Part shown: in pieces, positions 2,690 to 29,676 of the stretch | How positions within the stretch are numbered: the first letter of the stretch is position 1 | Layout: each line of letters opens with the position of its first letter | Assembly (NCBI RefSeq): GCF_003263515.1 | Contig: NZ_JYDE01000010.1 | Coordinates: forward strand, 1-64,000 | Length of the DNA: 64,000 bases | Direction of reading: 5' to 3' | DNA from: Rahnella inusitata | Lineage (GTDB): Bacteria; Pseudomonadota; Gammaproteobacteria; Enterobacterales; Enterobacteriaceae | Translations under genes and position numbers: made by a program | The notes under the pieces: generated by a model | Seen by the model: only the letters and a program-made list of their open reading frames with translations | The model's database searches: none | Told to the model about the DNA's origin: nothing

Positions 2690-3495
2690 TGAGCCCGATG
2701 ACCATGACCGAAGATCTGTTTACCCAGCCGCATCTGGCGGACAGGCACCGTGAACAGACCGACCCGATTTTGCAGCTGGAAAACATCAACGTCAGTTTTG
2801 ATGGTTTTAAGGCGCTGACTAACCTGTCGCTCAACATCGGCGTCGGCGAACTGCGCTGCGTAATCGGCCCGAACGGCGCAGGTAAAACCACGCTGATGGA
2901 TGTCATTACCGGCAAAACCAAACCGCAAAGCGGCCGGGTGTTTTACGATCAGCGCACCGATCTGACCAACCTCGATCCGGTGCGCATCGCGCAGTCCGGC
3001 ATTGGCCGCAAATTCCAGAAGCCGACGGTCTTCGAAGCGCTGACCGTATTCGAAAATCTGGAGATCGCGCAGAAAACCAATAAATCAGTTTGGGCGTGCC
3101 TGCGCGCCAAAATGAACAGCGAACAGCGCGACCGCATCGATGAAATGCTCGGCACGCTGCGGCTGACCACGGAACGTCATCGTCCGGCGGGTTTGCTGTC
3201 GCACGGCCAGAAACAGTTTCTGGAGATCGGCATGCTGCTGGTGCAGGAACCGCATTTGCTGCTGCTCGACGAACCGGCTGCGGGCATGACCGACGCCGAA
3301 ACCGAATACACCGCCGAGCTATTTAAACAGCTGGCGGGCAAACATTCGCTGATGGTGGTCGAGCACGACATGGGCTTTGTGGAAAGCATCGCCGACCACG
3401 TCACCGTGCTGCATCAGGGGCAGGTGCTGGCGGAAGGCTCGCTGAAACAAGTGCAGGCCAACGAGCAGGTTATCGACGTTTATTTAGGACGCTGA
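2689..3495 (+). CDS. urtD: Urea ABC transporter ATP-binding protein UrtD
   Basis: Cytoplasmic ATPase of the urea importer, LivG-like, 268 residues. The Walker A motif GPNGAGKTT is at residues 60-68. The signature is degenerate (LSHGQKQ rather than LSGGQ), as is common in LivG/UrtD proteins. The Walker B segment LLLLDEPAAGM and the switch histidine in VVEHDMGFV follow. An extra N-terminal stretch of about 27 residues precedes the ABC core. It lies between urtC and urtE in one operon, 10 bp before urtE. Confidence 0.93.
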   Translation: MSPMTMTEDLFTQPHLADRHREQTDPILQLENINVSFDGFKALTNLSLNIGVGELRCVIGPNGAGKTTLMDVITGKTKPQSGRVFYDQRTDLTNLDPVRIAQSGIGRKFQKPTVFEALTVFENLEIAQKTNKSVWACLRAKMNSEQRDRIDEMLGTLRLTTERHRPAGLLSHGQKQFLEIGMLLVQEPHLLLLDEPAAGMTDAETEYTAELFKQLAGKHSLMVVEHDMGFVESIADHVTVLHQGQVLAEGSLKQVQANEQVIDVYLGR

Positions 3496-18824: not shown

Positions 18825-20363
18825 TCAGAACAGCCCCATCGGTTTGCTTGAATACGAAACGAGTAAACATTTCGTTTGCTGGTAGTGATCCAACATCATT
18901 TTGTGGGTTTCACGACCAAGACCAGACTGTTTGTAGCCACCGAAGGCAGCGTGCGCCGGATAGGCGTGGTAGCAGTTGGTCCAGACGCGTCCCGCCTGAA
19001 TGTTGCGCCCCATGTGATACGCCACGTTGCCGTCGCGGCTCCACACGCCTGCGCCCAGCCCGTAAGCAGTATCGTTGGCAATTTGCAGCGCTTCATCCAT
19101 ATCTTTAAATGTCGTCACTGCCAGCACCGGCCCGAAGATTTCTTCCTGGAAGACGCGCATGTTGTTTTTACCCAGCAGGATGGTCGGTTGCAGGTAATAA
19201 CCTTCGTTAAGCGATCCTTCCAGTTTTTTCTTCGCGCCGCCGGTCAGCACTTCCGCGCCCTCTTTTTTACCGATTTCGATGTAATCCAGAATGGTTTTCA
19301 TCTGTCCGGCAGAGACCTGCGCGCCCATCTGCGTTTCCATATCCAGCGGATTACCGGTTTTAATGGCTTCGACGCGTTTTATCGCTCGCTCCATAAAGCG
19401 TTCGTAAATGGATTCCTGCACCAGCGCGCGGCTCGGACAGGTACAGACTTCACCCTGATTAAAGGCGAACAGCGCGAAGCCTTCCAGCGCTTTATCGAAG
19501 AATTCGTCTTCTTTATCCATCACGTCAGCGAAGAAAATGTTTGGCGATTTGCCGCCAAGTTCCAGCGTGGCCGGGATCAGATTCTGCGCGGCGTAACCGG
19601 CAATTTGCTGGCCGACTTCGGTCGAGCCGGTGAACGCGACTTTGGCAATGCGTTTGGAGGTCGCCAGATATTCGCCGATTTCACCGCCCGCGCCGTTGAC
19701 CACGTTGATGACGCCCGGCGGCAAGATATCCTGAACCAGCTCCATCAGCAGCAATACGGAAAGCGGCGTCAGTTTGGCCGGTTTGAGCACGATGCAGTTA
19801 CCGGCAGCCAGCGCCGGTGCCATTTTCCAGCATGCCATCAGCAGCGGGAAGTTCCACGGGATGATCTGCGCCACGACGCCCAATGGTTCATGGAAATGAT
19901 AGGCGACCGTTTCGCTGTCTATTTCGCTGATCCCCCCTTCCTGTGCGCGGATGCAGGACGCGAAATAGCGGAAATGGTCGATGGCCAGCGGAACGTCCGC
20001 ACCGCTGGTTTCGCGGATGGGTTTTCCGTTATCCCAGGTTTCGGCGTTGGCCAGCAGTTCGATGTTTTGTTCCATGCGATCGGCGACTTTAAGCAGTAAG
20101 TTCGCCCGCTGCTGCACCGGCATTTTGCCCCATTCCCCTTTGGCTTTATGCGCGGCATCCAGCGCCAGCTCGATATCGTCGGTGCTGGAACTCGCCACTT
20201 TGCACAACACTTCGCCGGTCACCGGCGTCAGGTTGTCGTAATATTCGTTTTTCACCGGCGCTACCCATTCCCCGCCGATGAAGTTTTCGTATTGTTTTTT
20301 GAGTTTGAGAGGGAAACCGTATTCTTCCGGTTTGACGGCATGAGGATTTTTATCATAAGCCAT
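18825..20363 (-). CDS. aldB: Aldehyde dehydrogenase AldB
   Basis: Cytoplasmic NAD(P)-dependent aldehyde dehydrogenase, 512 residues, the same length as E. coli AldB and nearly collinear with it as recalled. The catalytic cysteine is C307 in [10 protein letters not shown], the general base E269 is in LELGGKSP, and the cofactor-binding FTGSTEVGQ is at about 244-252. AldB oxidises acetaldehyde and similar short aldehydes, mostly in stationary phase in E. coli. The ribosome-binding site AAGGAG is part of, or next to, an upstream inverted repeat. In E. coli the next genes are yiaY, selB, selA and yibF; here yibF follows upstream at once. Confidence 0.94.
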
Positions 20364-20374
20364 GATGGGACTCC

Positions 20375-20410
20375 TTTATGCAGCAGGTTTTTAGCAATGC
20401 GCTGCATAAA
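20375..20410. repeat. Inverted repeat in the aldB leader touching the ribosome-binding site
   Basis: TTTATGCAGC (20375-20384) and GCTGCATAAA (20401-20410) are perfect 10-bp arms around a 16-nt loop. On the minus strand the 3' arm runs straight into the aldB AAAGGAG ribosome-binding site, so folding could partly mask it. The adjoining bases GACGCTTATCCGG (20425-20437) resemble half of an enterobacterial REP element. Confidence 0.55.
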
Positions 20411-20465
20411 GCGTAGGCCGTAGACGCTTATCCGGTGGGATGTAAAGAGAACTCTTCGAGCGGCC

Positions 20466-21107
20466 TCACACCTTTTTCACTGCAAAGCTGGCGTTACCGC
20501 CTGCGGGCGGTGTGGTGCGCGCAAAACTCTCGCGCTGGAACAGGCGTTCGACCAGTTTAATCAGCTCCGGTCGCTCGACACACCAGCCTGGCGCGATACG
20601 GCGAAAGTTGATGTAACCCAGCGAGCAGGCGACGGCGATATCGGCCACGTTGAGGCTTTCAGAATTGAGTAACGTACGTTTCCCGGCGAGTTTTTCCAGC
20701 GCGTCCAGCCCGCGCAGCAGCTTTTCCCGCTGGCGCAAAACCCAGGCTTCGTTACGTTTATCCGGATCGCGTCGGCCTTCCAGCACCAGCGCTACGGCTG
20801 CGTCAGTGACGCCATCGGCCAGCGCTTCGATTTGCTTTACCCGCAGGGCTTCCAGCGGCTGCCACGGCAACAACGTCGGGGCGACGTTCATCAGCTCGAT
20901 GAATTGAACAATGATAGGGGAATCGTAAAACACTTCGCCGTCGTCGGTGACCAGCGCGGGGACTTTGCCGAGCGGATTGAACTGGGTGATTTTGCAGCCC
21001 GGCTCGTGTGGTACGTCATTGATAAAATCGAACGGGATGCCCTTTTCCAGCAACATCACGGAAATTTTTCGCACATACGGGCTGGTATAGCTGCCGATCA
21101 ACTTCAT
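20466..21107 (-). CDS. yibF: Glutathione S-transferase YibF
   Basis: A 213-residue glutathione transferase (E. coli YibF about 202 aa). The thioredoxin-like N-domain starts [19 protein letters not shown] and contains [13 protein letters not shown] and the glutathione-contacting [12 protein letters not shown]. The helical C-domain ends with [37 protein letters not shown], which is characteristic of YibF. I chose ATG at 21107 with GGAGG just upstream. An upstream GTG at 21119 is in frame but lies before that ribosome-binding site. It stands between aldB and the fdo genes. Confidence 0.9.
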
Positions 21108-21196
21108 CAAACCCTCCACGTTTCACCGGAATCTCTATTAAACCTAGCAGCCGCACGCCTTTCTTTCCATCATGCGGCGGCCGCCAGATTCAGAGA

Positions 21197-22126
21197 TTAC
21201 TGCGCGGGAAACAGAAACGGATTGATGCCGCTGCCGGTGAACCCTTTTTCTTCCATACGATCATCGAGTAACAGCGTGGCGAGATCGTCCGCGACCGCCT
21301 CGGCCTGCGGATCTTTTTCCTGATAGATAACTTTCAGATAAGCGCCGCAGTCGTCACAGGCTTCGGCTTTCACCGCTGCCTGCTGGTCATCCACCGTTCC
21401 GTCCGTCACCGACCAATAGTGCAGATTTCCCATTTCGTCGCAGTTGGTGCATTTGGCGCGCACGACGTGCCATTCACTTTCGCACAGATTGCAGTGCAGA
21501 TAGCGCAGGCCGCTGAGGGTGCCCATCGCTATCATCCCGGACACCGGCACGCTGCCGCAGACCGGACAGAACTGACGGTTTTCGCCGTAATCTGCGCGCC
21601 CTGCGCCACGCAGTTGCGTCGCCATTTGCGCCCAGTACAGCGACAGCGCGGCCCAGATAAACGGCGCCTGATCGGCAGGAACCTGTTTGAAATCCTGATT
21701 CAGCAGGTGCGTGGCCATCATTTCGCGTTGCAGGCCGGGCGCATGTTCGAGGCGTTCAAGCACGGCGTGTACCGGGCCGGAGGACTGTGGCTTGAGTACC
21801 GCGATCAGCGCGTCCAGCAACCGGAGCCAGTGCGGCGTACGGGGAAACAAACGGCAATCGAGCGGCGGTTTTCCAGCGGCTTTTTGCAATTCGTCGCTGA
21901 GATCGATATTGAGTGGAAACTCCGCCAGCACGCGTTGCTGCGCTTCGCATAACGACGCCGCAAAATTCAGATATCCATCCAGCGGGCTGTCTTCTGCCAG
22001 TTTGCGCAGGCGATCGGCGCGGCGCTGATACAGTGTTTTGAGGTTGGCGAACAGCACCGGCGGGATGTTCCCCGCCGTTTTTTTGCCGTCAGCCAGTTCG
22101 TCCTGAGGGACAATCTGGATGCTCAT
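21197..22126 (-). CDS. fdhE: Formate dehydrogenase accessory protein FdhE
   Basis: A 309-residue cytoplasmic protein needed for assembly of respiratory formate dehydrogenases. The C-terminal half holds rubredoxin-like CxxC pairs: [33 protein letters not shown] and CDDCGAYLK. It overlaps fdoI by 4 bp (ATGA), so it is the last gene of a fdoG-fdoH-fdoI-fdhE operon. Confidence 0.94.
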
Positions 22127-22776
22127 CCGGCTTTCCTCTCGTCTTCGTCTTTTTGCTTCTGTTTCGCCAGTTCTTCGCGATACCAGCGTGGATGGTGGTA
22201 CTTCGCCCAGGACGCCGGCACTTTACCGCCGGTCATCGCATCGATAGAACCTTTCGCCCAGGTCGCGGCGTACACGTGCATGATGATGACCAGAATCAGC
22301 CCGATACCGGCCAGCGAGTGCACCAGCAGGGCGAGACGGATCAACGGGATAGGGAAGAAATCGGCAAACCATGGCCGCCAGATAATGACGCCGCTGGCCA
22401 TCAGCAGAACCAGGCAACTGATCGCTGCCCAGAACACACATTTCTGGCCAAAGTTGTAGCGGCCAGTGTCGCCGACTTCATGGTTGGTCAGCACTTTGTC
22501 GATATTTTTCGCCCAGACCAGATCGTCTTTTTCCGGCAGGTTGTGCTTCCAGTAGCGAAAGAACATCCCGAGGAACGAAACGAACATCACCACGCCGAAG
22601 AACGGATGGAGAATGCGCGCCAGCTGCGGCGTGCCGTAAATGTTCATCAGCCAGTTAAACGACGGAAAAAAGAACCCCAGACCGCTGAGCGCCAGGGATA
22701 CAAAACAGAAAGCCACGATCCAGTGATTGAGGCGTTCCATCAGGCTGTAGCGTTGGATCATTTTCTCTTTTTTCAT
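22123..22776 (-). CDS. fdoI: Formate dehydrogenase-O, cytochrome b556 subunit FdoI
   Basis: A 217-residue membrane subunit that carries heme b and passes electrons from FdoH to quinone. Four TM helices are predicted. Histidines suited to heme ligation are in [21 protein letters not shown] and [12 protein letters not shown], and the segment [15 protein letters not shown] is highly conserved in the family. It overlaps fdoH by 4 bp (ATGA) and has a GAGGAGAAG ribosome-binding site. The C-terminus is lysine- and glutamate-rich. Confidence 0.94.
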
Positions 22777-23666
22777 GGTTTCTTCTCCTCGTCATCGTGC
22801 TCTTCTTCCTCTTTCACATAGTTCGGTCCTACGCCGAGGAAGTGGAAGGCGGCAGCCGCAAAGGTCACCGCAAATCCGACGGCTGCGAGAGGTTTCCAGA
22901 CACCTTTCCATAATGTTACTGCCGCACTGATCGCCGGGTCTTTCGGCAGGCCGTGATACAGCTCCGGTTTATCGGCGTGATGCAGTACGTACATGACGTG
23001 CGTGCCACCGACGCCCGGCGGATCGTACAAGCCTGCGTGTTCAAAACCGCGCCCTTGCAACTCGCTGACGCGCTCTGCGGCGAGGAATTTCATCTCCTCT
23101 TTGGTGCCAAAATGAATCGCACCGGTCGGACAGGTTTTCACGCAGGCCGGTTCCTGACCTACGCTGACGCGGTCGACGCACAGCGTGCATTTGTAGGCAC
23201 GGTTATCCTGTTTGTTGATACGCGGAACGTTGAACGGGCAACCGGCGATGCAGTAACCGCAGCCGATGCAGTGTTCAGACTGAAAATCGACGATGCCGTT
23301 AGCGTATTGCAGGATCGCGCCTTCCGCCGGGCAGGCTTTCAGACAGCCAGGATCGGCGCAGTGCATACAGCCGTCTTTGCGGATCAGCCACTCCAGCTTG
23401 CCGTTCTCCTCAACTTCAGAGAAACGCATCACGGTCCAGGATTTCGCAGTGAGATCCATCGGGTTGTCGTACACGCCGGTATTGATGCCGACCTCGTCGC
23501 GCAGGTCATTCCATTCGGAACAGGCGACCTGACAGCCTTTACAGCCGATGCAGGTGGTGACGTCGATAAGCTTCGCCACTTCCTGCTGATGATCGCGGGC
23601 ACGCGGCGCTGGCGTGAACCCGTTAGTTGCGGACTTACGAAGTATGTCCTGAGATTGCATTGCCAT
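22773..23666 (-). CDS. fdoH: Formate dehydrogenase-O, iron-sulfur subunit FdoH
   Basis: A 297-residue electron-transfer subunit with four [4Fe-4S] clusters. The cysteine motifs are [41 protein letters not shown], and [21 protein letters not shown]. One C-terminal TM helix (near residues 255-275, [19 protein letters not shown]) anchors it to the periplasmic face of the membrane. It starts 12 bp after fdoG with GGAGGCG as ribosome-binding site. Confidence 0.95.
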
Positions 23667-23678
23667 AATTCGCCTCCG

Positions 23679-26600
23679 TTAGACCTTTTCCACGTTAACC
23701 AGGAACGCCTTAAATTCCGGCGTTTGCGAGTTAGCGTCACCGACCGACGGCGTCAGCGTATTGGCCAAATAGCCTTTGCGCGTTGCGCCTTCAAAGCCCC
23801 AGTGACAAGGAATGCCAATGGTTTCGACATGTTTTCCGTCGATGGTCAGCGGACGAATACGTTTGGTCACCACGGCTTTCGCCACGATGAAACCTCGCTT
23901 GGACGACACTTTCACGTCGTCACCCTGCGCGATACCTTTTGAAGCAGCCAGACCTTCGCCAATCTCAATAAACTGCTCAGGCTGCGCGATGGCGTTCAGC
24001 AGCGCGTGCTTGGTCCAGTGGCGGAACAATTCGGTGATCGAATACGTGGTGGCGACGTAAGGGAAATCTTTTGCCGTGCCCATATTCGGCACATCGCTGG
24101 CGAAAATACGCGCGACCGGGTTGGAGATAACATTCGGATGCAGCGGATTGGTGCCAATCGGCGATTCGATCGGTTCGTAATGCTCAGGGAACGGACCGTC
24201 GGCCATTTTGTCCGTAGAGAACAAGCGTCCGACGCCTTCCTGCTGCATGATGAACGGCCCGACACCGGTTCCCGGCGCAGCGTTGCTGTAATCCGGGACG
24301 TCAAAACCGGTCCACTTCGCGCCATCCCAGCGGATGATTTCGCGTTTGGGATCCCACGGCTGCCCCTGCGGGTCAACGGATGCGCGGTTATACAGAATGC
24401 GGCGGTTCAGCGGCCATGCCCACGCCCAGCCGGACGTACAGCCCAGACCGGAGGGATCGGCGTTATCGCGGCGTGCCATCTGATTACCGGCTTCGGTCCA
24501 GCTGCCGGCATAAATCCAGCAGAAACTGGCGGTGGTCCCGTCGTTTTTCAGATGGGCAAAGGTCGAGAGTTGCTGACCTTTTTTCGCCAGCAGATTGCCC
24601 TGATCGTCATGAATATCAGCCAGTGCTTTGCCGTTAGCTTCACGGGCAATTTCTTCCGGCAGCGGGTCTAGCGGATCCTGATAATCCCACGCCATATTCA
24701 TCACCGGCAGCGGGTTCGCGCCGCCTTCTTTCTGATACAGCTCGCGCAGTTTCATGAACAGGCGGGCGATGATTTTGCCGTCATGCAGCGCCTCACCCGG
24801 CGGCTCAGAGGCCTGGAAGTGCCATTGCAGCCAGCGGCCTGAGTTCACAATCGAGCCGTTTTCTTCTGCAAAACAGGATGACGGCAGACGGAACACTTCG
24901 GTCTGAATATCGGCGGTGCTGACGTCGTTCATCGCGCCGTGGTTTTGCCAGAAGTTCGAGGACTCGGTCACCAGCGGGTCGATCACCACCATGTATTTCA
25001 GTTTTGAGAGCGCACGCGAGGATTTATTTTTGTCCGGGAACGCCGCCAGCGGGTTGAAGCCCTGCACGATATAACCGTTCAGTTTGCCTTGGGTCATCAG
25101 CTCGGCCTGTTGCAGCACGTCGTAGCTTTTATCCCATTTTGGCAGCCAGTCAAAGCCCCAGTCGTTCTGCGCCGTGGCGTTGTCGCCCCAGAAGCTTTTC
25201 ATCATGCTGACGAAGAAATTCGGGGTGTTTTTCCAGAAGTTGACCTGATTTTCGACCAGCGGCCCCGGCGTGATTTGTTTCAGGTAATCCGTCAGGTTGG
25301 TCTGTTTTTCCGATGGCAGCGGCATATAGCCAGGCAGGTTCAGCGAGAGCAAACCGAGATCGGTATATCCCTGAATATTCGAGTGGCCACGCAGCGCATT
25401 GACGCCACCGCCCGGCATCCCGATATTGCCAAGCAGCAACTGGATCATCGCCGCACAGCGGATGATTTGCGCACCGCCGGTGTGGTGCGTCCAGCCCAGC
25501 GCATACAGGATGGTCGAGGTTTTATCGCGCGCACAGGTTTCCGCCAGGATCGAGCTTATCAGCAGAAAATCTTCTTTCGAGGTGCCGCACAGGCGCTCTA
25601 CCAGCTCCGGCGTGTAACGGGAGACGTGCTCTTTCAGCAAATGCCAGACGCAGCGCGGATCCTGCAAGGTTTTGTCCTGCTTCGCGAAGCCGTTTTCATC
25701 CAGCTGATAGTGCCAGCTGTCTTTATTGTAAGCTTTCTTCCCGGCGTCAAAGCCGCTGAACAGCCCGTCGTTAAACGCATAATCTTCCCGCACCAGCAGG
25801 CTGGCATTGGTGTATTCCCTGACGTACTCGGTCTGGATTTTATTATGCGTAATCAGGTAGTTGATCATGCCGAGCAGGAAAGCGGTGTCAGAACCGGCGC
25901 GGATGGGCGCGTAAATATCGGCTACGGCGGCACTGCGGTTAAAGCGCGGATCGACGACGATGACTTTGGCGTTATTTTTCGTTTTGGCTTCAATCACCCA
26001 TTTGAATCCGACCGGGTGCGCTTCAGCAGCATTTCCGCCCATGATCAAAATCACGTTGGCGTTTTTGATATCCACCCAGTTATTGGTCATCGCACCGCGA
26101 CCAAAGCTTGGCGCTAAAGCGGCGACGGTCGGGCCGTGACACAGACGCGCCTGGCAGTCGATAGCAACCATCCCGAGTGCGCGGGTGAATTTCTGATCCA
26201 GCAGGCCGGTTTCGTTACTGGCCGCAGAAGAGCACAGCATCCCGGTGGTCAGCCAGCGATTGACCGTCACGTTGTTGTCGTTTTTCTCGACAAAGTTGGC
26301 GTCGCGGTCATCTTTCATCAGGCGGGCGATACGGGAAATCGCCTCGTCCCAGCTCATGCGCTGCCATTTATCAGAGCCCGGCGCGCGATATTCCGGGTAT
26401 TTCAGACGCCCTTCGCTGTGAATGTAATCCAGCACGCCAGCGCCTTTCGGGCACAACGAGCCGCGACTGACCGGATGATCGGCGTCACCCTCGACGTGGA
26501 AAATGTTCTCAGTGACATTTTTTGCGCCGTCGCCCTGGCTGTAAATCAGCATTCCGCAACCGACCGAACAATAGGTGCAGTTATTACGGGTTTCGCGCGA

Positions 26601-26726
26601 ACGCAGCAGTTTGTACTGACGCGTTTCGGCCAGCGCCAGTGTCGGGGTAAACCCTAATAAAGCCGCTGTGGTGCCGGCCATACCGCCTGCACATATTTTG
26701 AATAATTGTCTTCTGCTGACTTGCAT
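23679..26726 (-). CDS. fdoG: Formate dehydrogenase-O, major subunit FdoG (cysteine form)
   Basis: Molybdenum (bis-MGD) catalytic subunit oxidising formate to CO2, 1015 residues (E. coli 1016). A twin-arginine signal (SRRQLFK) begins the protein, so the complex faces the periplasm. The [4Fe-4S] site is CTYCSVGCGM...CPKG. Residue 196, in ARLCHGPTV, is cysteine encoded by TGT at 26139-26141, at the position where E. coli FdoG has selenocysteine encoded by TGA. The following histidine is conserved. ATG at 26726 was chosen because AAGGAG precedes it and it gives the TAT signal at the N-terminus. The open frame continues ten codons upstream. Divergent from fdhD. Confidence 0.95.
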   Translation of the reverse strand: MQVSRRQLFKICAGGMAGTTAALLGFTPTLALAETRQYKLLRSRETRNNCTYCSVGCGMLIYSQGDGAKNVTENIFHVEGDADHPVSRGSLCPKGAGVLDYIHSEGRLKYPEYRAPGSDKWQRMSWDEAISRIARLMKDDRDANFVEKNDNNVTVNRWLTTGMLCSSAASNETGLLDQKFTRALGMVAIDCQARLCHGPTVAALAPSFGRGAMTNNWVDIKNANVILIMGGNAAEAHPVGFKWVIEAKTKNNAKVIVVDPRFNRSAAVADIYAPIRAGSDTAFLLGMINYLITHNKIQTEYVREYTNASLLVREDYAFNDGLFSGFDAGKKAYNKDSWHYQLDENGFAKQDKTLQDPRCVWHLLKEHVSRYTPELVERLCGTSKEDFLLISSILAETCARDKTSTILYALGWTHHTGGAQIIRCAAMIQLLLGNIGMPGGGVNALRGHSNIQGYTDLGLLSLNLPGYMPLPSEKQTNLTDYLKQITPGPLVENQVNFWKNTPNFFVSMMKSFWGDNATAQNDWGFDWLPKWDKSYDVLQQAELMTQGKLNGYIVQGFNPLAAFPDKNKSSRALSKLKYMVVIDPLVTESSNFWQNHGAMNDVSTADIQTEVFRLPSSCFAEENGSIVNSGRWLQWHFQASEPPGEALHDGKIIARLFMKLRELYQKEGGANPLPVMNMAWDYQDPLDPLPEEIAREANGKALADIHDDQGNLLAKKGQQLSTFAHLKNDGTTASFCWIYAGSWTEAGNQMARRDNADPSGLGCTSGWAWAWPLNRRILYNRASVDPQGQPWDPKREIIRWDGAKWTGFDVPDYSNAAPGTGVGPFIMQQEGVGRLFSTDKMADGPFPEHYEPIESPIGTNPLHPNVISNPVARIFASDVPNMGTAKDFPYVATTYSITELFRHWTKHALLNAIAQPEQFIEIGEGLAASKGIAQGDDVKVSSKRGFIVAKAVVTKRIRPLTIDGKHVETIGIPCHWGFEGATRKGYLANTLTPSVGDANSQTPEFKAFLVNVEKV

Positions 26727-26870
26727 GAAAGACTCCTTCCCATCATTTGTTAACACATTGCTTTTAAATTGCCGCTTTCCGTTGCAGAGGCAGAAGCGGT
26801 AAAATTAAGACCTAAAGTCCTGACAGTTTGTACGGCTTATGTAGCCGGAATGTTTATAAGGTTATTGCCA

Positions 26871-27713
26871 ATGGATGTCCATCAAGTAAACGAACTGGGC
26901 AAAAAAGATGATAAAAAAGTGACTCAGATCATCGGAGCGCGCCAAAAACCGGTGATGCAGCGCACACATCTTGGTGAGCCTGAAGACGACTGGATTGCTG
27001 AAGAAGTGCCCGTTGCGCTGGTCTATAACGGGATTTCGCACGTGGTGATGATGGCCTCGCCGAAAGATCTGGAAGCCTTCGCGCTGGGCTTTTCGCTGTC
27101 AGAAGGGATTATCGAATCCATCAGTGATATTCAGGGAATGGACGTGACGCCCAACTGTAACGGTATCGAAGTGAATATTGAGCTTTCGAGCCGCCGCTTC
27201 GCCGGGCTAAAAGAGCGTCGCCGCGCGATGGCCGGACGCACCGGTTGCGGGGTCTGCGGCATCGAGCAGCTCGGTGACCTCTTCCGCCCGCTCGCCCCAC
27301 TGACGTTCACCCAGACGTTCGATCTGCGGCATCTGGACACCGCGTTGAATCAGCTGAAATCCGTACAAACCATCGGACAACTGACCGGCTGCACCCACGC
27401 CGCAGCGTGGATCTCCCTGGAAGGGGAATTACTCGGCGGCTGTGAAGACGTCGGACGCCACGTCGCACTCGATAAAATGCTGGGAAATCGCGCCCGCCAG
27501 CCCGGCTGGAATTCCGGCGCCGCGCTGGTCTCCAGCCGCGCAAGTTATGAGATGGTGCAGAAAGCCGCGATGTGCGGCATCGAGATCCTGTTCGCCGTTT
27601 CTGCAGCCACGACGCTCGCCGTCGACGTCGCCGAAAAGTGCAACCTGACGCTGGTCGGTTTCAGTAAACCCGGCCGCGCCACGGTGTATACGCATCCGCA
27701 GCGGCTGAGGTAA
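26871..27713 (+). CDS. fdhD: Formate dehydrogenase accessory sulfurtransferase FdhD
   Basis: A 280-residue sulfurtransferase (E. coli 277 aa) that passes sulfur from IscS to the molybdenum cofactor of formate dehydrogenases. The essential cysteine pair is in [15 protein letters not shown]. Conserved segments [16 protein letters not shown] and [16 protein letters not shown] are present. I chose ATG at 26871 by length; a start at 26850 or one as far up as 26769 is in frame, and the ribosome-binding sites are weak (AAGG). Divergent from fdoG, with which it works. Confidence 0.9.
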
Positions 27714-27766: not shown

Positions 27767-29083
27767 ATGCGGCAGCCGTACCGTCTGGAAAGCATAACTC
27801 TCAAGGATGTGGGCGTATTCGAGAATACGCGCTTTGATTTCCCACCGATAAAAAGCGAGAAAGCCGACGCGGAAAAGGCGGAAATTCATATCTTCACCGG
27901 CCCGAACGGCTGCGGGAAAAGTACACTTCTGTATGCGCTGGCCGCGGTGTTTGATGAGCGGATGGATCATTTTCCGCAACTAAAAACTCGCTTTAAGAAT
28001 AACCGTAGTTTTATGCGGTTTACTTTTCAAAATACAGAAGGCCGCTTTAATTCATTTGCAACTATGTCTCAATATGAAAAGAATCGGCCTGTTATGGCAA
28101 GTGCATCGGTGCCCGGCTCGCTTACTGACTATCAAAATAAAAATAAGTCTTATAGGTTTCGTGATTTTGATTTTGCTGCTTTTGCTTATTCTGGACAGTC
28201 TAATTCTTCTGAAACATTCGACGTCTCTGTTATTGAAGAAATCGCAGATTCTCCTTTCGATAAAGCCCTCTCTTTTAACTCGACGGTTCGCCCCAAAACG
28301 ATTGCTCAGTGGATTGCCCTAAATCGCTCAAATGCGGCTTTAGCCCTGCAAGATGGCGCTCTTGAAGAAATCAAAAGATATGATCTTGCGCTTGAGCGTA
28401 TATCTGCCTTTATCAAATCTGTCTGCGATCTGGATGTTTCATTCCGTTTAGAGCGCAATCCACGTTCGGTATCGCTGATCATTGATGGTGAAATTGTCCC
28501 CTTCAACGTTTTACCCGACGGCCTGAAATCCATTATTGGCTGGATATCTGATCTCGCGCTGCGTCTTGAAGCCATTCAGTGGAAAGAAAGCCGCGATATC
28601 TTCTCGCAACCGATCATCTTATTCCTCGATGAAGTCGATATTCATCTGCACCCTAAATGGCAGCGCCGCATTCTTCCGGCGATTCAAAAATTATTGCCCA
28701 ATGCGCAGGTGTTTGTTTCCACGCATTCGCCGTTTGTTGTTGGCTCAGTCGAAGATGCCTGGGTTTACCGGTTGCCGGATCCACAGCGTCTGGTGTGTCG
28801 GGATCCGCATATTGCTGAGGTCATCGAGGCGACTGAATCAGCGGGCGGAAAGAGCTATCAGGTGATTCTGGAAGAAGTTTTCGAAGTGAAAGAACAGTTT
28901 GATATCGAAACTGAAAAACAGCTGGAACATTTTTATCAATTGCGGAATGCCTATCTAAAGGATCCTCAGGACATCCGCGCACTGAAAGTCTGTGCGGAAA
29001 AACTGAGTGAAATAAGTGAAGAAGTCGACGCCATCATTTTGATGGAAATGCGCCAAATTGCACGGCTGACCAAAGCAAAATAA
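27767..29083 (+). CDS. ptuA: PtuA-like AAA/ABC-type ATPase, Septu-type defence
   Basis: A 438-residue ATPase of the SMC/Rad50-like AAA_15/AAA_21 type. Walker A is GPNGCGKS at residues 45-52 and Walker B is ILFLDEVDIHLHP with D288-E289. The D-loop/H-loop region is VFVSTHSPFVVGS, and FNVLPDGLKSIIGWISDLALR is the signature-like helix. An HNH nuclease gene follows 11 bp later, the arrangement of the Septu phage-defence system (PtuA ATPase plus PtuB nuclease). No reverse transcriptase or retron RNA gene is adjacent, so this would be a stand-alone form. The stretch 27960-28560 is visibly A+T-richer than its neighbours, which suggests transfer. An OLD-like or other ATPase is the alternative. Confidence 0.8.
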   Translation: MRQPYRLESITLKDVGVFENTRFDFPPIKSEKADAEKAEIHIFTGPNGCGKSTLLYALAAVFDERMDHFPQLKTRFKNNRSFMRFTFQNTEGRFNSFATMSQYEKNRPVMASASVPGSLTDYQNKNKSYRFRDFDFAAFAYSGQSNSSETFDVSVIEEIADSPFDKALSFNSTVRPKTIAQWIALNRSNAALALQDGALEEIKRYDLALERISAFIKSVCDLDVSFRLERNPRSVSLIIDGEIVPFNVLPDGLKSIIGWISDLALRLEAIQWKESRDIFSQPIILFLDEVDIHLHPKWQRRILPAIQKLLPNAQVFVSTHSPFVVGSVEDAWVYRLPDPQRLVCRDPHIAEVIEATESAGGKSYQVILEEVFEVKEQFDIETEKQLEHFYQLRNAYLKDPQDIRALKVCAEKLSEISEEVDAIILMEMRQIARLTKAK

Positions 29084-29094
29084 GGATTTTTTGC

Positions 29095-29676
29095 ATGTAC
29101 ACATTTATTAGGGATGCCTCCCCGGCATGTCTCGCTTTGCGCTGGGAAGAGTGGACAGATCGCTACTGCTCCGGTGACAAGGGTTTTAAGTGGTATTCAC
29201 CCAAATGCTACGAAAACGTCCGTCAAAAATTATTCGAATCCAGCCTTCAGCATTGTGCATTCTGTGACGGACTAACGTGTGCTGAAAGCCGCCAGACTAT
29301 CGAACACTTCAAACCAAAAGAACGCCACGCCTTTCCTGAACTGGCATTTCACTGGGCGAATCTTTATCCCTGCTGCGACCGCTGTCAGAGCCAGAAAGGC
29401 AGCCGGTACGATCCCGCACTGCTTAACCCTGACGATCTTGAATATCATTTTGATGATTATTTCGTGGCGAATTATCTGACGGGTGAAATAGAAGTTTCCC
29501 CACTCGCCAGTGCGGAAAACTGTCACAGAGCACATGTTACTCTTGAGTTGTACGGACTAAATCTGGGTATCAGAACCGCACGCCGTAAGCGTGAAGCGCA
29601 ACTGTTCCAGCACAGAAATCCGGAAAGAGAACCCTTAGATGACTTCAGCTATCGCTATTTCCTCAAGAACTGTTGA
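29095..29676 (+). CDS. ptuB: PtuB-like HNH endonuclease, Septu-type defence
   Basis: A 193-residue HNH nuclease. Zinc cysteine pairs are C54/C57 (HCAFCDG) and C94/C97 (CCDRC). The catalytic-type residues are H71 in TIEHFKPK and N89 in WANLYPCC. This is the compact HNH type (TIGR02646-like) found with AAA ATPases in Septu and some retron systems. AAGGA precedes the ATG. In Septu the nuclease is thought to be held by the ATPase and to act during phage infection; that role is inferred here from the gene pair. Confidence 0.8.
   Translation: MYTFIRDASPACLALRWEEWTDRYCSGDKGFKWYSPKCYENVRQKLFESSLQHCAFCDGLTCAESRQTIEHFKPKERHAFPELAFHWANLYPCCDRCQSQKGSRYDPALLNPDDLEYHFDDYFVANYLTGEIEVSPLASAENCHRAHVTLELYGLNLGIRTARRKREAQLFQHRNPEREPLDDFSYRYFLKNC

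Follow-up and report, generated by a model that had tools for sequence, protein, structure and literature searches.

Formate dehydrogenases with cysteine in enterobacteria

Formate dehydrogenases with cysteine (Cys) at the place of selenocysteine (Sec) are already published from enterobacteria without sel genes. The excerpts of PMC3349551 report Cys formate dehydrogenases together with the absence of sel genes in Dickeya and Pectobacterium, and those of PMC7384014 report that a natural Cys form of FdhF drives most H2 production in Pectobacterium. In the excerpted text of both papers, the operons of these genera are held not to be orthologues of the E. coli loci, with no mention of an exchange of the alpha subunit. 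Conversion from Sec to Cys is known in FdhA, for example in Mannheimia, which retains a SECIS remnant (PMC1794560); such changes are still called rare, and the documented cases are mainly FdhA and SelD (PMC13188914). Methanococcus maripaludis has pairs of Sec and Cys isozymes, with regulation by selenium a feature of Methanococcus (PMC1273633). The view that Cys forms are slower derives, in the excerpts of the papers that cite it (PMC3636253, PMC3349551, PMC7384014), from single-residue Sec-to-Cys variants of Fdh-H from E. coli; an enzyme from a Cys lineage of long standing need not share their slowness.

We analyzed a stretch of 64,000 nucleotides from Rahnella inusitata, called the window below, that contains an fdoG gene. 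Like E. coli Fdh-O and Fdh-N (FdoG, FdnG; 1kqf), the enzyme shows a full-length match, the same subunits, cofactor and active-site residues, and the gene order fdhD, fdoGHI, fdhE; unlike them, it has Cys196, no SECIS, an alpha subunit that appears to come from another lineage, and a genome without detected sel genes. Dickeya and Pectobacterium resemble it as enterobacteria without sel genes whose Cys formate dehydrogenases include respiratory alpha subunits of the same Cys clade. Unlike the window, which keeps the native fdo locus, their operons, beside which fdhD and fdhE were not found, carry an FdnI-like gamma subunit (44-47% identical to E. coli FdoI). Mannheimia FdhA (PMC1794560) shares the Cys end state in a lineage with Sec relatives, but its SECIS remnant accompanies an inferred within-gene conversion, whereas the window has no remnant and seems to record a whole-gene exchange. 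The presence of both isoforms in one genome, as in Methanococcus maripaludis, is seen in Photorhabdus, Proteus, Citrobacter, Klebsiella and Kosakonia.

We consider it highly probable that a Cys-type allele replaced fdoG and no other gene of the native operon and that selA-selB were lost, leaving a working, selenium-independent alpha subunit. What may be new here is the alpha-only exchange and its recurrence in several lineages; we found no description of such an exchange in the open-access literature, most subscription papers being outside the search, and literature support for its novelty is weak.

The catalytic codon and the selenium machinery

The fdoG gene (23679..26726, minus strand) encodes the Cys-type alpha subunit of a formate dehydrogenase of the Fdn/Fdo family. 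Its translation has 1015 amino acids, a single terminal stop and no in-frame TGA, as an earlier note on this DNA had claimed, and it matches TIGR01553 (formate dehydrogenase-N alpha) over residues 2-1014 with 1538.8 bits (curated cut-off 814.2 bits). Codon 196 (26139..26141, minus strand) is TGT and encodes Cys in the context ARLCHGPTV; the coordinates given in the earlier note are all correct. It had also equated the residue with Sec196 of E. coli, and realignment leaves it in that place: in an alignment to PDB entry 1kqf (residues 1-1014), ungapped at the active site, Cys196 stands opposite the Sec (X) of E. coli FdnG without any shift. The [4Fe-4S] ligands Cys50, Cys53, Cys57 and Cys92 are all kept at their E. 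coli numbers. So are the active-site residues Lys94, His197 and Arg446, of which we take Lys94 and Arg446 to be active-site residues by their roles in Fdh-N and Fdh-H. The dN/dS of fdoG against five Rahnella genomes is about 0.03, and the gene is under strong purifying selection.

TGT or TGC occupies the same codon in seven Rahnella genomes, Ewingella, "Hafnia psychrotolerans" and Edaphovirga; among named genomes, Rahnella species come closest, with 97% FdoG identity. There is next to no chance that a sequencing error has turned TGA into TGT here or that codon 196 is misaligned. Both were rejected on the codons of the relatives and the ungapped alignment to 1kqf, together with the sel genes below cut-off and the absent SECIS described below, and we regard the TGT as real. 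A second cysteine, Cys191, lies five residues ahead of the catalytic one (DCQARLC). Residue 191 is Cys in many Cys-type FdoG proteins and Asn in Sec types, and it is not universally Cys among the former, being Thr, Ser or Asn in Pantoea, Pseudomonas and others.

To find the sel genes of the window's genome (60 contigs, rated 100% complete), we performed family searches against curated cut-offs. Not found above cut-off were selA (best 48.8 bits against 267.9), selB (119.7 against 242), selD (52.1 against 125) and tRNA-Sec, selC (41.5 against 47); Rfam and tRNA scans of the window gave no matches. L002, an FdhF-like enzyme from another part of this genome, likewise carries Cys at its Sec position, VDCCARVCHGPSV. 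Within fdoG, the stretch equivalent to the SECIS (26097..26141, minus strand) differs at 13 of 45 bases from the otherwise invariant Sec-type sequence, and neither a SECIS remnant nor a SECIS-like fold was found there. The 45 bases from TGA onward are identical in 13 of the 14 Sec-type genes tested, in a comparison that set aside the Cys rows L185 and L100 as out of register. This identity includes synonymous sites (e.g., L132, L134, L181, L188), and the f9 gene L036 has a single mismatch. None of the marks of a selenoprotein FdhA (in-frame UGA, SECIS, selA/B/C/D) was thus seen for the window's fdoG. Because the sel genes fall below their cut-offs, L002 also carries Cys and the SECIS stretch has diverged, FdoG must, judging from sequence, be independent of selenium if it is active; the independence predicted in the earlier note is supported by gene content.

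Among 296 genomes of the order, selB was present in all 44 with a TGA-containing fdoG, and in 0 of 5 Cys-only genomes of the window's family and 1 of 22 of family f27. In 26 further genomes, reached via named loci, the 11 with a TGA copy were exactly the 11 with selB. The one exception in the f27 sample, G211, combines a Cys FdoG with a selB-like gene (286.7 bits). G196 and G243, which lie outside the window's family, each carry one Cys and one TGA fdoG-like copy.

FdoG and its operon partners

The beta, gamma and maturation genes lie in one operon with fdoG and follow it in line on the minus strand: fdoH (22773..23666; TIGR01582, 469.9 bits), a beta subunit of native-locus type by tree and identities; fdoI (22123..22776; PRK10639, 370.9 bits, cut-off 341), a gamma (cytochrome b) subunit of the native FdoI type; and fdhE (21197..22126; PRK03564, 463.1 bits), a maturation protein. 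Divergent from fdoG on the plus strand is fdhD (26769..27713; TIGR00129, 293.6 bits), encoding the molybdenum cofactor sulfurtransferase.

We compared the FdoG sequences and mapped Cys and Sec on gene trees, which represent a sample of taxa (58 rows for FdoG). The 80 best relatives of FdoG among one-per-species genomes were all Cys forms, from organisms including Photorhabdus, Citrobacter youngae, Klebsiella grimontii, Kosakonia, Pectobacterium, Pantoea, Pseudomonas and Azotobacter. In the FdoG tree, one change separates the Sec from the Cys forms; the trees of the partners need 6 (FdoH), 8 (FdoI), 6 (FdhE) and 5 (FdhD), which is why we favor an exchange over a codon change. FdoG appears to belong to an old Cys-type lineage common to Photorhabdus, Citrobacter, Pectobacterium, Pantoea and Pseudomonas, while FdoH, FdoI, FdhE and FdhD, unlike FdoG, seem to follow the native locus. 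A single clade of all Cys operons was rejected for both FdoH and FdoI. Of the "cysteine in place of selenocysteine" in the earlier note, the Cys at the catalytic position therefore stands, but the implied Sec-to-Cys change within fdoG does not.

Pairwise identities reflect the same conflict. Edaphovirga (Cys) and its syntenic Sec relative G275 are 79% identical in FdhD, 73% in FdoG, 90% in both FdoH and FdoI, and 78% in FdhE; the corresponding values for the Sec genomes G238 and G275 are 78, 93, 89, 88 and 82%, and those for Pantoea-like G248 (Cys) and G218 (Sec), called the same genus, are 81, 67, 87, 87 and 86%. Only FdoG is out of line. As the Rahnella-group FdoH, FdoI and FdhE sit on long branches, Edaphovirga rather than the window provides the cleanest case.

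Could a simple codon conversion account for these patterns? TGA would have become TGT or TGC, the SECIS would have been lost, drift would have followed, and the grouping of Cys forms would be convergence from the use of sulfur. Sec-to-Cys conversion is documented in FdhA, with SECIS remnants in some cases (PMC1794560), and a few positions do track the Sec/Cys state (e.g., V195L, S203A). The Sec/Cys split was nevertheless unchanged when the N-terminus and the active-site region were removed (alignment columns 1-60 and 160-300, under a mixture model), and again when the 64 columns that separate Sec from Cys forms were left out; convergence driven by the active site was rejected on these results. 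Rahnella and a Citrobacter Cys paralogue have FdoG proteins that are 79% identical but FdoI proteins that are only 49% identical, no SECIS remnant was found in the window's fdoG, and this gene is not nested among Sec genes of the same locus as a point-converted gene would be. Constraining the Rahnella group with the G238 and G275 Sec forms cost 474 log units, and constraining it with any Sec form cost 136 (KH and SH p < 0.001 for both); the signal was spread along fdoG except for the first ~40-50 residues, which held almost none. For one constraint, the AU test returned a p value of 0.55 despite the 474-unit difference; this is contradicted by a KH, SH and RELL recheck, and we take it as a numerical failure. 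With the signal of the whole-gene tree and the conflict with the partner trees against it, simple codon conversion is strongly disfavored and, in our estimate, very improbable.

The exchange of fdoG also appears to have a limit in the DNA. When the window or Edaphovirga is compared with the G275 Sec locus, DNA identity rises from ~70% to 90% at about base 3000 of fdoG and stays high into fdoH. This step falls in the last ~35-50 bases of the gene, placing the approximate 3' limit of the exchanged stretch at 23679..23726 (minus strand). The Sec-Sec pair G238/G275, compared likewise, showed no step. The 5' limit is probably near the start of fdoG, though it is less clear than the 3' limit.

Paired operons, gene order and a proposed history

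Genomes of Photorhabdus, Proteus, Providencia, Citrobacter, Kluyvera, Klebsiella, Kosakonia, Lelliottia and Entomohabitans combine a Cys-type operon with one or two of the Sec type. Between the Cys and Sec operons of one Proteus genome, FdoH is 95%, FdoI 89% and FdoG 68% identical; in one Photorhabdus genome, the values are 91, 84 and 71%. The Cys operons L185, L193 and L194, set against the Sec operons L184, L181 and L188 (Citrobacter, Photorhabdus, Proteus), are close in beta and gamma but not in alpha. Either an alpha exchange or a conversion of the partners would leave near-identical beta genes with divergent alpha genes as its trace, and near-identical beta genes may offer the homology for an exchange.

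These pairs bear on a second alternative, in which a whole Cys operon was acquired at the window's locus and a resident Sec operon later converted fdoH, fdoI and fdhE to their native look. Because beta and gamma are close in Proteus and Photorhabdus while alpha is not, partners may indeed be homogenized between operons. Against such a replacement, the window's operon sits in the conserved fdo order with fdhD, fdhE, yibF and aldB, no second operon exists today in Cys-only genomes such as Rahnella, and more steps would be needed for this locus. We regard partner replacement as unlikely here; its end product is the same as that of an alpha exchange.

Gene order also carries a trace of the lost machinery. 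In Sec-decoding relatives (L133, L134, L135, L139, L140), fdhD is followed by fdoG-fdoH-fdoI-fdhE-(yibF)-selA-selB, and the same Sec-type order is found in Photorhabdus (L181) and Proteus (L188). In L134, the order runs on into aldB, and a 217-aa lipoprotein-like gene occupies the place that yibF has in L135. E. coli has yibF-selA-selB-yiaY-aldB as a separate block. The window has the order of the Sec relatives minus selA-selB: fdhE is followed by a gene for a yibF-like glutathione transferase (20466..21119, minus strand; PRK10357, 319.1 bits), whose counterpart neighbors selA in E. coli and G218; by a gap of 102 bases (20364..20465) corresponding to the selA-selB site of Sec-decoding relatives; and by aldB, an aldehyde dehydrogenase gene (18825..20363, minus strand) that adjoins selB in G275 and is near selB in E. 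coli. The window's order matches that of Sec relatives without selA-selB, which is most simply read as descent from a locus with Sec machinery beside fdoG.

Under the preferred reading, an exchange of fdoG alone, the ancestral Sec-type gene would have been replaced, from close to the start up to the final ~35-50 bases, by the fdoG of an older Cys-type operon lineage. Native fdoH, fdoI, fdhE and fdhD would have been retained, and the selA-selB pair that stood between yibF and aldB would have been lost. An ancestor common to Rahnella, Ewingella and Edaphovirga may have held both operon types, with the alpha exchange at the fdo locus preceding the loss of selAB, tRNA-Sec and selD. The donor could be such a paralogous operon of the same genome or, just as well, another species from which the alpha gene was taken up. 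The product would be a periplasm-facing, membrane-bound Fdo-type enzyme with a Cys-type alpha subunit, predicted to oxidize formate at a bis-MGD site whose molybdenum (or tungsten) is ligated by Cys196 instead of Sec196 and, by analogy with its family, to pass electrons via FdoH and FdoI to quinone.

Pantoea and Erwinia, judged by where they fall in the FdoG tree, seem to represent a separate event. With moderate confidence, we extend the reading to the order: Enterobacterales may drop selenium from respiratory formate dehydrogenase mainly by alpha-only swaps to a long-lived Cys allele rather than by mutating a codon, with independent swaps in several families (Rahnella/Edaphovirga, Pantoea/Erwinia, a group with Serratia and Brenneria, and Sec-decoding species whose Cys operons have Fdn or Fdo partners), with electron-transfer and membrane subunits inherited or homogenized within each genome. 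The usual picture of a Sec-to-Cys change is a codon altered in a functional gene, which in formate dehydrogenase should bring a large immediate loss of activity. In the window, a catalytic subunit of an established Cys type, compatible with the resident partners, seems to have been taken on in a single step; such a swap avoids passage through a poor enzyme and may explain repeated Sec loss in Enterobacterales. In Sec-decoding Citrobacter, Photorhabdus and Proteus, the Cys-type operon is possibly a selenium-backup enzyme, and the operon pairs of the tractable genera Proteus, Citrobacter, Klebsiella and Kosakonia are candidates for this role. Matched Cys and Sec alpha subunits also become available for kinetic comparison on shared partners.

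Between fdhD and sodA, the window's plus strand encodes a PtuA ATPase (27767-29083) and a PtuB HNH nuclease (29095-29676), a Septu-like anti-phage defense pair (PADLOC, 611 and 232 bits). A diverged PtuA/PtuB pair (65-73% and 44% identity) occupies the same place in two of seven other Rahnella loci (L053, L060), and sodA directly follows fdhD in the rest. Given this distribution, the interval looks like a defense hotspot.
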